A stretch of 37,867 bases of DNA from Desulfurellaceae bacterium (lineage in GTDB: Bacteria; Campylobacterota_A; Desulfurellia; Desulfurellales; Hippeaceae): assembly GCA_015486965.1 (NCBI GenBank), contig WFQQ01000073.1, positions 1-37,867 of the forward strand, in the 5' to 3' direction. The notes under the pieces are model-generated. The model searched no databases. It had not been told where the DNA came from and was given only the letters and a program-made list of their open reading frames with translations. The position numbers were made by a program, and so were the translations under genes. Position 1 is the first letter of the stretch; every line of letters begins with the position of its first letter. This document shows positions 22,661 through 27,830 of the stretch, piece after piece.

Positions 22661-24583
22661 CTAAAAAAATCTATATGAAACAGTGGCGAACACCGACCTT
22701 GGCAGCGTTGAATACCCATATACCTCTTCGTAAAATCTATCGAAAATGTTTTTAACTGTAAGGGATGCGGATAGATTTTTGTTTACCTCATAGCTTGCTG
22801 TGAAGTCAAAAACTGCATACTTGCCTGTCTGTTTCAGGTGTTTTCTGTCATCGTATCTCTTGCCAATGTATCTTCCTGTGAGTGTTGCATTCAGCCTTTT
22901 GTTAAGTCCTGTAAGTGTAACAAATCCTGTATATACCCTTAAGGGCACCCTCGCTGCCTGAATTCCCGTTTCAGGGTCTTTACTTGCTGTATAGGTGTAG
23001 TTAGCCCCTATTGTCAGGAATTTCAGAGGTTTAGCACTAATTCCCAGTTCAACTCCATCTGTAACCGTTTTGCCTTTTGCATTTCTGTAGGTTGATTGCC
23101 AGGTTGTGTAGTCTGTGTAGTATGTAATTCTATCTTTGATTATATTTTTAAAGTATGTGAAGCTAATTTTAATGTTGTTGGGTATGAGTTGTATAAACCC
23201 AAAATCCCAGCTTTTCGCTTTCTCTGGGTCTAAATCTTTGTTTCCACCCAGGAAATACCATGATGGGATGGGTGGAGCGTATAGTTCATAAATGCTTGGG
23301 GCTCTGAATCCAGTTCCGAAGTTTGCTTTAAGTATGGTGTGTGTTTTTTCAAGTAGGTAGTTTGCCCCCAATTTGTATGTAAAATGTTTTCCAAATGTTT
23401 TGAAGTCGTCTTCTCTTGCTGTAGCCTGCAGTTTGATATTTCCAATTTTTTGAAGCAACTCCAAAAAGCCTGCGTAGTTGTATCTCAACTTCTTAAAGGG
23501 ACTTGAATCCTCATATTTATCCATTTTTCCAGTAGCACCAGCTGTTATTTTTGTACGGTTTATTTTGTATGTTATTAAGATGTTTGAACCCCATCTTCTG
23601 CCTTTGTAGTTGTTCCATCCAGGTGCAGATTTGAAGTATCTAAATGTGTGGGTGTAATACCCGTTTAAATTAATTTTCAGGTTTCCTATCTGTTTGGTTA
23701 TGTAGAGTTTTGATAAAAGAAAGTGTTTGTTTACTCTTAAACTTTTAGCCGTTGGAGTATTGTTAGTAGGTGCGTTATCGTCAGGAAAGTAGTGGTAATC
23801 AGGTGTAACATACCATCCATTGTCTAAGTAGTTCCTCGTTTTGTACCATTTTAACACAAGACCGAGCTTTGAGAGAGAGCCGAGCTCGTATTCCAGTCTT
23901 GTAGAAAAAGCTGTTTGGTGATATGAGTCGTCTTCGTCTCCCTTTGAGTATGAGTGGTCAGTGGGGTTGTATTTGTCCATTTTTGAAATACCGTCTGTGT
24001 CCAATCTGAGTGCGTTGATGTAAAAGCTCAATCCATTTGAAACACCACCTGCCTCAGCTGACTCTTTAAATGTAGAGTCAGAACCTAACTCCTCTTTCAC
24101 TATTACATGGGGTTTGCCAGAGCCTCTCTTTGTTATGATATTTATAACACCTCCAACGGCATTTGCTCCATACAGTCCGCTCTGTGCACCCTGAACCACC
24201 TCAATCCTGTTTATGTCGTCTGGTAATAGGTCTGCAAAATCGTAGTACGGCTGAATTAGGGTAGGGTCTGAAACATCCACCCCGTCCATTAAGGTTTTAA
24301 TATATCTGCTGGAAAGTCCCCTCATAAAAACTGTTGTTGTACCGCCAAAGGCTCCATTTGATACAATAGAAAGCCCAGGCACATATTTTAGCGCCCCTTT
24401 TGTAAAAATAGCTCCATCCTTCTCTATCTGTTTTTGTGTTATAACATTTACCTGCGAAGGAGTGTTTAGTATGTTTGACTCTGTTCTCGTTGCCGTTACA
24501 ACAATTACATTATCCTGTGCGTGTGCGTAGGTGCTCAACATAGCCAATGCACACCCAAGAGCAAGAAGTTTTTTTAGTTTCAT
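22661..24583 (-). CDS. btuB: TonB-dependent outer-membrane receptor, BtuB-like
   Basis: A 640-residue receptor. It has a signal peptide ending in AHAQ, a TonB box-like segment (NVIVVTATRTESN) and the plug domain (about 35-155) with VNVITQKQIEKDG, VFMRGLSSRYIKTLMDGV and GAQSGLYGANAVGGVINI. The beta-barrel ends in a phenylalanine (VSYRFF), as outer-membrane barrels do. Size and plug resemble BtuB, and the gene lies 9 bases behind nrdG in the transcript headed by a cobalamin riboswitch, so vitamin B12 is the likely substrate. AGGAGG ribosome binding site. The matching periplasmic and inner-membrane importer genes lie convergently just beyond the inverted repeat. TonB/ExbBD are not in the window. 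Confidence 0.9.
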   Translation of the reverse strand: MKLKKLLALGCALAMLSTYAHAQDNVIVVTATRTESNILNTPSQVNVITQKQIEKDGAIFTKGALKYVPGLSIVSNGAFGGTTTVFMRGLSSRYIKTLMDGVDVSDPTLIQPYYDFADLLPDDINRIEVVQGAQSGLYGANAVGGVINIITKRGSGKPHVIVKEELGSDSTFKESAEAGGVSNGLSFYINALRLDTDGISKMDKYNPTDHSYSKGDEDDSYHQTAFSTRLEYELGSLSKLGLVLKWYKTRNYLDNGWYVTPDYHYFPDDNAPTNNTPTAKSLRVNKHFLLSKLYITKQIGNLKINLNGYYTHTFRYFKSAPGWNNYKGRRWGSNILITYKINRTKITAGATGKMDKYEDSSPFKKLRYNYAGFLELLQKIGNIKLQATAREDDFKTFGKHFTYKLGANYLLEKTHTILKANFGTGFRAPSIYELYAPPIPSWYFLGGNKDLDPEKAKSWDFGFIQLIPNNIKISFTYFKNIIKDRITYYTDYTTWQSTYRNAKGKTVTDGVELGISAKPLKFLTIGANYTYTASKDPETGIQAARVPLRVYTGFVTLTGLNKRLNATLTGRYIGKRYDDRKHLKQTGKYAVFDFTASYEVNKNLSASLTVKNIFDRFYEEVYGYSTLPRSVFATVSYRFF

Positions 24584-24592
24584 CTGTTCCTC

Positions 24593-25279
24593 CTACCTAA
24601 TTACGCATTGTTTAACATACCTATCACATAGTTTTTTTAGTTCGCTAAGTTCATTCTTTCCAAAGCTTTCCCTGTTTAAATAGTGAGTGTCTAAAGTTTT
24701 TGTTTTGCTGAAATTTTGTATGCAGTAGAGTCTTGCACCTTCAATTATTTTTAAGATATTCTCAATATCTTTTTGGGTCAGTAATCCCTTCACTACTGTT
24801 GTTCTAAACTCGTATTCAATGTTGGAATTCATAATTATCGCTATACTTTTTTCGATCTGCTTTTCATCTATGTTGGATTTTGTTAGTAAGCGATATTTGT
24901 TCAACGGCGCCTTTATATCCATTGCAATGTAGTTTAAAAGTTTTTGCCCAATCATATGTTTAATGAGCTCTGGGTTTGAGCCATTTGTGTCTAATTTCAC
25001 TTTAAAACCCATCGATCTCACTTTTTCCACAAAATTTACAAGTTGAGCGCCGTGTAGAGTGGGCTCTCCACCTGTGACGGAAACCCCTGTGAGCTTGCCA
25101 ACTCTCCTTTTTAAGAAGCTTAAAACATAACTCTCGTCAATTTTTCTTGCTGTGCCGTAAACCAGCTCTGGGTTGTGGCAGTAGGGACACCTAAAGTTAC
25201 ATCCCACCGTGAAAACTAAGGCTGCAAGCTCTCCAGGGTAGTCTATTAAGGAGAATTTCTGGAGCCCTCCAAATATCAT
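24593..25279 (-). CDS. nrdG: Anaerobic ribonucleotide reductase activating enzyme (radical SAM)
   Basis: A 228-residue radical SAM enzyme. The cluster motif is CNFRCPYC (Cys27, Cys31, Cys34) followed by HNPEL, then VTGGEPTLH and KLDTNGSNP, all typical of the NrdG/PflA group. It reduces SAM at a [4Fe-4S] cluster and abstracts hydrogen from a glycine of class III ribonucleotide reductase. Its start codon overlaps the stop of the 58-residue glycyl-radical gene by four bases (ATGA), so the activator is translationally coupled to the very peptide that carries the target glycine. Confidence 0.93.
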   Translation of the reverse strand: MIFGGLQKFSLIDYPGELAALVFTVGCNFRCPYCHNPELVYGTARKIDESYVLSFLKRRVGKLTGVSVTGGEPTLHGAQLVNFVEKVRSMGFKVKLDTNGSNPELIKHMIGQKLLNYIAMDIKAPLNKYRLLTKSNIDEKQIEKSIAIIMNSNIEYEFRTTVVKGLLTQKDIENILKIIEGARLYCIQNFSKTKTLDTHYLNRESFGKNELSELKKLCDRYVKQCVIR

Positions 25280-25452
25280 GATATCTTAAATGTTCTTCTC
25301 TCTCTGAATTCTTCCTGTTTGCCGTCGTTCCATTGTTGAACAGGTCTCAGATATCCAACCACCCGTGAATAGACCTCACACTTCTCGCCCCTCACATCCA
25401 TTTTTGCCTTCTCAAGCTCCTCAATTCTTTTCAAAATTTCCTCTCTTGTCAT
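25276..25452 (-). CDS. Detached glycyl-radical C-terminal module of class III ribonucleotide reductase (58 aa)
   Basis: This 58-residue gene is too short for most ORF lists. It contains the C-terminal glycyl-radical segment of NrdD: CEVYSRVVGYLRP followed by WNDGKQEEFRER, with Gly33 in the RVVGY motif as the predicted radical site. Residues 3-18 (REEILKRIEELEKAKM) look like an amphipathic helix. It lies four codons after the nrdD TAA and in the same frame. It has its own ribosome binding site (GGAGGTG, five bases before the ATG) and overlaps nrdG by ATGA, which argues for a real gene and against decay. It should associate with the large NrdD protein, which lacks this motif, and be activated by NrdG. 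A 743-residue read-through product is an alternative. Confidence 0.9.
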   Translation of the reverse strand: MTREEILKRIEELEKAKMDVRGEKCEVYSRVVGYLRPVQQWNDGKQEEFRERRTFKIS

Positions 25453-25464
25453 AATGCACCTCCA

Positions 25465-27507
25465 TTAACTTGCCTCTTTAAGTTCTTTTTTTAGCTCTTT
25501 TATCTTTTTTTCTATCTCCTCCACTCTCTCTGCTTTGCATATTGGGCACTCTGCATGTTCTCCAGCTATATATCCATGTATGGGACAGATGGAAAATGTT
25601 GGTGTTATAGTCAGATATGGAAGCCTGTAGTTCTCAAAGATGTTTTTTATCAGCAGTTTTATGCTTCTTGTATCCGTTATTTTTTCTCCGACAAATATAT
25701 GCAGAACAGTTCCGCCTGTGTAGCTTGATTGCAGTTCATCTTGCAGCTCTAAAACTTCAAATACATCGTCTGAATAGTTCACTGGTAGTTGGGAAGAGTT
25801 TGTGTAGTAAGGTCTTTTTGTTCCAGCTGTTATTATCTCTGGATATCGTTTCTTATCCAGAAGGGCGAGCCTGTAGCTAACTCCCTCTGCAGGTGTTGCC
25901 TCGAGATTGTAGTTGTTTCCTGTCTTTTGTTGAAACTCCACAAGTTTTTCCCTCATAAATCTCAATGTTTTCAATGCGAATTCCTGTCCAACTTGTGAGG
26001 TTATTGGCTCTCCAAGAAGGTTGAGACATGCCTCATTCATTCCAACGAGCCCTATGGTGGAAAAATGATTTTTCCAGTACTCCCCGAACCTTTCCTTGAT
26101 CGTTGTTAGATAGAACTTTGAATATGGGTAGAGACCTGAATCTGTAAAACCTTCCAACACCTTTCTTTTGATTTCCAAACTCTCTCTTGCAAGTTCCATG
26201 AGTGAGGTTAGTCTTGTGAAAAACTCGTCTGTTGGTCTATCGCTTGGCTTTGAGAGAAACGCTATTCTTGGAAGGTTTATCGTAACTACACCTATAGAGC
26301 CTGTTAAAGGGTTTGAGCCAAACAATCCTCCGCCCCGAGTTCTCAACTCCCTTGTGTCTAACCTTAGCCTGCAGCACATTGAACGGGCATCTTCTGGCTT
26401 CATGTCGGAATTGATGAAATTTGCGAAGTAGGGTATGCCATATTTTGCAGTGGCTTGCCATAGGGGTTCTAAGTTTGGATTATCCCAGTCGAAATCCTTT
26501 GTAATGTTGTATGTGGGAATGGGGAATGTGAATACCCTTCCATCTGCATCGCCCTCACTCATAACCTCCATGAACGCTCTGTTTATCATATCCATCTCTT
26601 TCTGGAACTCTCCGTAAGATGAATTCACCGTTTTTCCACCAATGATTACAGCTTGGTTTTGCATAAACTGTGGAACTTTCAGGTCTAATGTGAGGTTTGT
26701 GAACGGGGTTTGAAAACCCACTCTCGTGGGAACATTGATATTGAAAATAAACTCTTGCAGCGCCTGTTTAACCTCATAGTAAGAGAGGTTGTCATAGGCC
26801 ACAAAAGGGGCAAGGTATGTGTCAAAATTTGAAAATGCCTGTGCGCCTGCGGATTCACCCTGAAGGGTGTAAAAGAAGTTTACTATCTGCCCCAAAGCAC
26901 TCCTGAAATGTTTTGCTGGTCTGCTTGCTACTTTTCCCTTTACACCCCTGAAGCCTTTTATGAGTAAGTCTTGCAAGTCCCACCCCACGCAGTAAACGCT
27001 TAAGGAGTTTAAGTCGTGAATATGGAAATCTCCGCTTAAGTGGGCATCCCTAATCTCTTTGGGATAAATCTTATTCAACCAGTATGTTTTTGTTATGGCA
27101 GATGAGACATAGTTATTCAGCCCTTGAAGGGAGTAGCTCATGTTTGAGTTCTCTTTCACTTCCCAGTCAAGTTTGTCCAGGTAGTTGTCAACCAATTCCA
27201 CATCGGCTTTGTTTTTCAGTTTTCTAATTTGTGCGTGCTGTTCCCTGTAGAGAATGTAAGCTTTTGCCGTTTTCTTGAATGTTGAGTTTAAAAGAACCTC
27301 TTCAACTATATCCTGTATCTCCTCAACTGTTGGGTTTCTATCCCCTATGAGCCTATACGCTAAGTCCAGAACCCTTATGGTGAGTCTTTTTGCTGCCTCA
27401 TAATCGAATTCCCCTGTTGCCTTGCCAGCTTTAGCTATGGCATCTGTAATTTTTGAAGGGTTAAACTCAACAACCCTTCCGTCCCTTTTAATAATTGATG
27501 AGAACAC
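25465..27507 (-). CDS. nrdD: Class III (anaerobic) ribonucleotide reductase large chain, lacking the glycyl-radical domain
   Basis: A 680-residue protein. An ATP-cone (about 1-95, IIKRDGRVVEFNPSKI) senses ATP/dATP, followed by the ten-stranded barrel of class III reductases with SVYCVGWDL and RSMCCRLRLDTREL, the two regions that hold the active-site cysteines in T4-type NrdD. A C-terminal zinc ribbon has CPIHG and CPIC. It then ends in a charged helix (RVEEIEKKIKELKKELKEAS) where the RVxGY glycyl motif should follow; that motif is encoded by the next gene. It reduces ribonucleotides without oxygen or B12. The start is a GTG at 27507 with AGGGGG five bases upstream. A cobalamin riboswitch precedes it. 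Confidence 0.93.
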   Translation of the reverse strand: MFSSIIKRDGRVVEFNPSKITDAIAKAGKATGEFDYEAAKRLTIRVLDLAYRLIGDRNPTVEEIQDIVEEVLLNSTFKKTAKAYILYREQHAQIRKLKNKADVELVDNYLDKLDWEVKENSNMSYSLQGLNNYVSSAITKTYWLNKIYPKEIRDAHLSGDFHIHDLNSLSVYCVGWDLQDLLIKGFRGVKGKVASRPAKHFRSALGQIVNFFYTLQGESAGAQAFSNFDTYLAPFVAYDNLSYYEVKQALQEFIFNINVPTRVGFQTPFTNLTLDLKVPQFMQNQAVIIGGKTVNSSYGEFQKEMDMINRAFMEVMSEGDADGRVFTFPIPTYNITKDFDWDNPNLEPLWQATAKYGIPYFANFINSDMKPEDARSMCCRLRLDTRELRTRGGGLFGSNPLTGSIGVVTINLPRIAFLSKPSDRPTDEFFTRLTSLMELARESLEIKRKVLEGFTDSGLYPYSKFYLTTIKERFGEYWKNHFSTIGLVGMNEACLNLLGEPITSQVGQEFALKTLRFMREKLVEFQQKTGNNYNLEATPAEGVSYRLALLDKKRYPEIITAGTKRPYYTNSSQLPVNYSDDVFEVLELQDELQSSYTGGTVLHIFVGEKITDTRSIKLLIKNIFENYRLPYLTITPTFSICPIHGYIAGEHAECPICKAERVEEIEKKIKELKKELKEAS

Positions 27508-27590: not shown

Positions 27591-27605
27591 CGAACCTCCC
27601 GTTCG
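27591..27605 (-). promoter_or_regulatory. Regulatory hairpin 3' of the cobalamin aptamer
   Basis: On the minus strand CGAAC and GTTCG pair around GGGAG. The position, a few bases after the P1 stem closes, is where cobalamin riboswitches place the hairpin whose loop docks with loop L5. The purine loop overlaps a Shine-Dalgarno-like GGGAGG, so it may also be the expression platform. The docking partner was not resolved. Confidence 0.5.
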
Positions 27606-27611
27606 TTTTTT

Positions 27612-27794
27612 GTCGGGCAAGTCTCCTGACTCGGCTTCATCCTACTCCCCTCAGCCTTCCCATCGGGCGACCCTTCTGCTTAAAAGAGCCTCTCCCAACA
27701 GTGGCTGCCCCTTTTTAAAGGGCTAAAGAGGGTTTCGTCAGCCTCACAGTTGCGGGGGCAGTGCCGGATTTTCACCGGACTTCCTTAACCCGAC
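27612..27794 (-). ncRNA. Cobalamin riboswitch aptamer
   Basis: On the minus strand the RNA starts and ends with the P1 arms GTCGGG and CCCGAC. Between them are the hallmark blocks in order: AAGGAAG and GGTGAAAATCCGGC, then GCCCCCGCAACTGTGAGG, GCAGCCACTG, GGGAGAGGCTC, GATGAAGCCGAG and the B12 box GTCAGGAGACTTGCC. This is a textbook class I cobalamin aptamer. It lies about 100 bases upstream of nrdD and downstream of its own promoter, so it controls nrdD, the glycyl-radical module, nrdG and btuB. Adenosylcobalamin binding normally represses. Whether control acts on translation or transcription is unclear; no obvious intrinsic terminator is seen on this strand. Confidence 0.96.
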
Positions 27795-27801
27795 TAAAAA
27801 T

Positions 27802-27830
27802 TTTATATAATTATTTTTAATAGTTGTCAA
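27802..27830 (-). promoter_or_regulatory. Sigma-70 promoter of the riboswitch-nrd-btuB transcript
   Basis: On the minus strand a perfect TTGACA (27825-27830), a 17-base spacer and TATAAA (27802-27807) precede the aptamer by eight bases. The -35 box lies inside the last codons of pgeF (Val-Asp-Asn), so the new transcript starts immediately behind the upstream operon. Confidence 0.8.

Follow-up and report, generated by a model that had tools for sequence, protein, structure and literature searches.

The window, by which we mean the whole 37,867-nucleotide stretch of DNA analysed here, very likely encodes an obligate two-chain class III ribonucleotide reductase whose detachable radical subunit is activated by NrdG, although no biochemistry is available for it. 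The separate gene for the radical motif, its conservation, the selection acting on it, the complementary domain coverage of the two products and the lack of any other NrdD in the genome are shown. The two-protein form of the enzyme is met in the present heat-loving anaerobe and also in numerous other anaerobic microbes. As far as was found in the open-access literature, no class III reductase with the radical on its own chain had been reported before.

Anatomy and predicted cobalamin control of the locus

The following features, all on the minus strand, make up the locus.

27599..27808 (-): cobalamin riboswitch 5' of nrdD (Rfam RF00174, 92.4 bits, gathering threshold 31.5, E 7.3e-22)
25465..27507 (-): nrdD large chain, GTG start, 680 aa, with ATP-cone, class III barrel, Zn ribbon and C-terminal helix
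25468..25536 (-): amphipathic C-terminal tail (residues 658-680) of the large chain, proposed as one half of a coiled-coil dock
25465..25467 (-): TAA stop of nrdD, read from the sequence; the splits of relatives lie at other distances and in other frames
25457..25463 (-): Shine-Dalgarno sequence GGAGGTG of the small gene, read from the sequence
25276..25452 (-): gene of the 58-aa glycyl radical subunit, TGA at 25278-25276, supported by Pfam NRDD, purifying selection and the 27-row alignment A2
25381..25452 (-): amphipathic helix at the N-terminus of the small chain (residues 1-24), proposed to form the other half of the dock
25354..25356 (-): codon for Gly33 of RVVGY, the predicted radical glycine, invariant in alignment A2 and aligned with the end of the NRDD model
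24593..25279 (-): nrdG activase (TIGR02495), with an ATGA overlap with the small gene
22661..24583 (-): TonB-dependent receptor, an ORF 10 nt past nrdG

The glycyl radical motif RVxGY is absent from the 680-aa nrdD product, whose reading frame stops past the Zn ribbon and a charged helix. The same-chain C-terminal loop that is standard for NrdD was not found in the large chain, and the motif occurs only on the 58-aa ORF. Four in-frame codons, TGG AGG TGC ATT (WRCI), separate the TAA from the ATG of the small gene at 25452. The original prediction had described this anatomy (the TAA, the four codons, the 58-codon gene with its GGAGGTG and the ATGA overlap), and it held exactly in the sequence and its ORFs. 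Pfam NRDD matches the large ORF over model positions 1-535 with 630 bits and the small ORF over positions 531-562 with 41.2 bits (cut-off 26.2, E 1.1e-10); therefore the two pieces together make up one NRDD domain.

The large chain additionally matches the Pfam ATP-cone (84 bits) and NF006126 (1066 bits), and the nrdG product matches TIGR02495 NrdG2 with 214 bits against a cut-off of 131. Thus the ATP-cone and NRDD barrel, the active-site residues and a co-encoded NrdG expected of a class III system are all present at the locus. The predicted barrel resembles solved NrdD structures, among them the P. copri NrdD fold. Residues C173, C378, C379 and E492 do not vary over 71 alignment rows, whether the barrel is split or fused. 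They are inferred to be the active-site residues of the subfamily, with no assignment of the thiyl-radical cysteine.

Riboswitches of the cobalamin type turn their operon off when B12 is plentiful, and by analogy with this established logic the class III operon is expected to be off under such conditions. The TonB-dependent receptor is likely BtuB-like and part of the same riboswitch operon, as inferred from its sequence and the adjacent ABC uptake genes. Together, the riboswitch and the downstream receptor and uptake genes suggest that the class III enzyme is controlled by B12 scarcity. The genome of the window also encodes a class II-type barrel (PF02867, at G000:C176), which we read as a B12-dependent NrdJ rather than a class I enzyme. 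The function of the split enzyme in this organism is therefore not forced by essentiality.

The presence of NrdJ, together with a riboswitch that would silence the operon at plentiful B12, is what speaks for nrdD being a broken remnant or an assembly error in a cell relying on the B12-dependent enzyme. This explanation is very unlikely, however, since neither piece nor nrdG is damaged, and all three are under purifying selection and conserved across genomes, single-contig ones included. Moreover, no further ribonucleotide reductase barrel was seen in several split genomes, with the reservation that these are drafts. A class I or II barrel was not found in 14 of the 23 split genomes outside the window's class, nor in G019 and G023 within it; in draft assemblies such absence is weak evidence. 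Because of this lack, the split enzyme may possibly be the sole reductase there. A second intact nrdD, which had been named as a possible refutation, was sought in the organism's own genome (1.79 Mb, 94% complete), and neither it nor another radical domain was found, the two NRDD matches described above being the only ones.

Conservation of the split and the junction helices

Within the genus and family of the window, every genome with a detected NRDD match except G001 has a barrel ending at about model position 533-540 and a separate radical-motif match, although in some draft assemblies of the family the barrel itself is interrupted by contig ends. The exception belongs to the same genus as the window and carries a fused NrdD without the helices. 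The split arrangement is also found in relatives of the same class. Among the Elusimicrobiota, 28 of 60 sampled genomes were split and 14 of 60 fused by our row count. Helix-free splits occur in Patescibacteria, Chloroflexota, Diapherotrites, Micrarchaeota and others. The possibility that relatives are always fused is thus ruled out, many of them being split.

Comparable pairs of genes were measured in 48 cases drawn from relatives of the Hippea type, from Elusimicrobiota and from a scatter of other phyla. Relative to the nrdD stop, the small gene starts at -86 to +355 nt, and every frame is represented; in some Elusimicrobiota the start picker passed over the likely ATG for one further on, so that the distances there are upper values. 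The small gene shares the nrdD frame in only 14 of the pairs, about the one third expected by chance. GGAGG or AGGAG sequences resembling a Shine-Dalgarno site precede the starts in many relatives, and in the window's family the protein is fixed at 58 aa from a conserved ATG. Substitutions relative to the small gene of the window amount to pN 0.11-0.22 and pS 0.74-1.03, and the closest usable pair of the genus (L007-L024) gives dN 0.067 and dS 0.687. The small gene is under strong purifying selection. Since the same arrangement is met in many genomes and selection maintains it, a chance break is excluded.

Read-through of the TAA had been put forward as a second possibility, in which the working enzyme would be a fused chain of 743 residues. 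In its favour, the two ORFs of the window share one frame and are only four codons apart. Against it, the in-frame pairs are no more frequent than chance and the gaps reach 355 nt, and the small gene comes with a conserved ATG and a Shine-Dalgarno sequence of its own and has a fixed length in the window's family. Taken together, the distances, frames and selection favour a real, separately translated protein, and read-through is very unlikely: the small gene of relatives usually lies out of frame with nrdD or at a distance of tens to hundreds of bases. The claim of a separate radical subunit, on the other hand, gains support from its conservation in several phyla, from the selection on the gene and from the way the two NRDD matches complement each other.

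On the barrel tree of 112 rows, parsimony requires at least 9 changes between split and fused states, with 3 for the helix type alone and 6 for helix-free splits. These counts rest on a quick tree with some weak or long branches, from which the mislabelled row L086 was left out. In an earlier tree still including that row, the starred branches force at least 6 changes. As separate observations, the nrdD genes of L118, L130 and L131 contain intein-like insertions after RVGFQ, beginning with C[LM]SEDT, and the gene of L130 carries at least one further insertion.

Only a few residues separate the Zn ribbon from CEVYSRVVGY in fused relatives, and window-type splits have about 20 extra residues on each side of the break. 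In the large-chain tail of 23 relatives the hydrophobic fraction is 0.74-0.96 at columns 5, 8, 12, 15 and 19 and near 0 at most others. In the small-chain head of the same number of relatives it is 1.0, 1.0, 1.0 and 0.83 at 4-3-(7) spacing, with nearly all other columns polar. This complementary 3-4 heptad spacing at both cut ends makes a two-helix coiled-coil dock likely, which remains an inference without structural evidence. L130 joins both segments through a short turn in a single chain, and its relative L131 is split. Docking through the helical segments on both sides of the break, as the original prediction supposed, is therefore probable on the strength of the heptads and the L130 fusion, while not shown structurally. 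When the read-through chain was modelled with AlphaFold, the barrel and both junction helices were predicted and the loop had a pLDDT below 50, a value that carries no information because MAFFT had misaligned the fused loop onto the tail helix; in a naturally fused control, L004, the radical domain reached a pLDDT of 82-95. The coiled coil is not universal among splits, because helix-free ones exist in other lineages.

The proposed mechanism can be outlined as follows. The two chains would be translated separately off one riboswitch-controlled operon, the large one retaining the ATP-cone, barrel, catalytic cysteines and Zn ribbon and the 58-residue one providing the glycyl radical loop. The C-terminal helix of the large chain and the N-terminal helix of the small chain would form a coiled coil, and this dock would bring Gly33 to the active site. 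NrdG would install the radical on the small chain, whether free or tethered. Because the oxygen-sensitive residue would sit on a part that is detachable and inexpensive to make, a radical subunit that has been damaged may in principle be swapped. The coiled coil, the activation by NrdG, the exchange of damaged subunits and ribonucleotide reduction by the glycyl radical are all inferred from sequence alone.

Relation to known split and spare-part systems

In solved class III NrdD the barrel chain itself carries the radical glycine close to its C-terminus (PMC11226230). The enzymes of T4, P. copri, T. maritima and S. thermophilus share with the window the ATP-cone (most of them), the NRDD barrel, the Zn ribbon, a loop of the RVxGY type and NrdG, whereas here the radical glycine is found on a separate 58-aa chain. 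An NrdD whose radical sits on a chain of its own was not described in the open-access literature searched, subscription papers being outside the scope. Phage nrdD genes are known to be interrupted by introns, inteins and homing endonucleases (PMC3653736). Those are intervening sequences or fragments; the window has no intervening element, and its break is conserved between two structural units.

A split reductase is known from Pseudomonas aeruginosa, where class II NrdJa and NrdJb are two essential chains of one operon (PMC4520616); according to that paper, no split reductase other than NrdJ had been found in a non-viral organism. NrdJab is, however, a B12 enzyme whose small chain serves disulfide exchange and not the radical, while the barrel of the window is NRDD and not B12-dependent. 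Free-standing small glycyl radical domains serving a barrel are represented by GrcA/YfiD and the phage-borne T4 Y06I (PMC8683613). GrcA/YfiD is of the pyruvate formate-lyase type and takes the place of the damaged end in an enzyme that is otherwise a single chain, whereas the barrel of the window has no radical domain of its own. The 58-aa protein had no match to the pyruvate formate-lyase-type glycyl radical model; among the glycyl radical models in Pfam and NCBIfam it matched only NRDD/NrdD.

It has been suggested that pyruvate formate-lyase may not be the only glycyl radical enzyme with spare-part proteins (PMC8683613). The split class III system makes this suggestion testable and hints at its exploitation by phages. 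As a natural two-part system, it would also allow glycyl radical installation, transfer and repair to be studied apart from the barrel.

Free-standing radical domains in stress clusters and phages

Extra copies of the helix type are present in oxygen-defence clusters of the window's class (L217:2733-2951 and L218:3920-4102), together with a Fur-family regulator, a ferritin-like protein and a desulfoferrodoxin; the L217 cluster additionally holds a flavodiiron protein and a peroxiredoxin. In Elusimicrobiota with a fused NrdD, radical-domain proteins of 100-109 aa (L230:2964-3266, L231:2479-2808 and L232:1779-2081) are accompanied by an Rrf2 regulator, and the L230 cluster also includes a hybrid-cluster protein. 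GrcA/YfiD restores an oxygen-cleaved barrel; for a class III counterpart, the stress-cluster context of the relatives is only suggestive.

Among the best 80 hits of a virus-contig scan, 61 were free-standing radical domains without a barrel in the locus and 19 were fused. When whole virus records were searched, the radical domain was alone in all 32 free-standing cases out of 32, though the records may be fragments. Copies in L208 and L188 sit among terminase, portal and head genes, and that of L136 is 0.9 kb from an endolysin gene. The docking heptad is kept in most of the listed helix-type extra and phage copies. The cultured phage collection gave three matches, with no free-standing copy identified (one record is unannotated); the Oceanotoga match falls under one CDS annotated as a class III reductase. 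PHROGs, Pfam and NCBIfam contain no dedicated family for the small proteins, the matches being mainly to the NrdD tail, and caution is needed as family models label small radical proteins as whole reductases.

By analogy with YfiD/GrcA, the free-standing copies are inferred to fit exchangeable or spare radical subunits, and the original comparison with that system is strengthened by their occurrence in phages and stress clusters. The rival here, which concerns only the exchange part, is neutral fission: a permanent heterodimer without any meaning for exchange, repair or regulation. The recurrence of splits (at least 9 changes) and the joined segments of L130 could mean that the junction simply tolerates breaks, and the helix-free splits of other lineages point the same way. 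Against it stand the extra free-standing copies, which are met within the same genomes as well as in phages and oxygen-stress clusters and some of which keep the docking heptad; we consider neutral fission less likely than not. Returning to exchangeable subunits, a bolder version supposes a general class III spare-part system of permanent partners, replacements under oxygen or nitrosative stress, and phage-borne copies sustaining or restarting the host dNTP supply. The present data leave that version evenly balanced between acceptance and rejection.

Some further forms of the domain were observed. Free-standing NrdD-type radical proteins of about 41-157 aa, judged by ORF lengths, occur without a barrel in the virus contig in L208, L188, L136, L148, L152, L175 and others. 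In L110:4119-4433, L077 and L238:2797-3120 a standalone radical domain has its own Cys-rich N-terminal domain, and NrdD is fused there. L223:3068-3790 encodes a phage virion structural protein (phrog_6121, E 3.9e-16) that carries a fused radical domain at its C-terminus.
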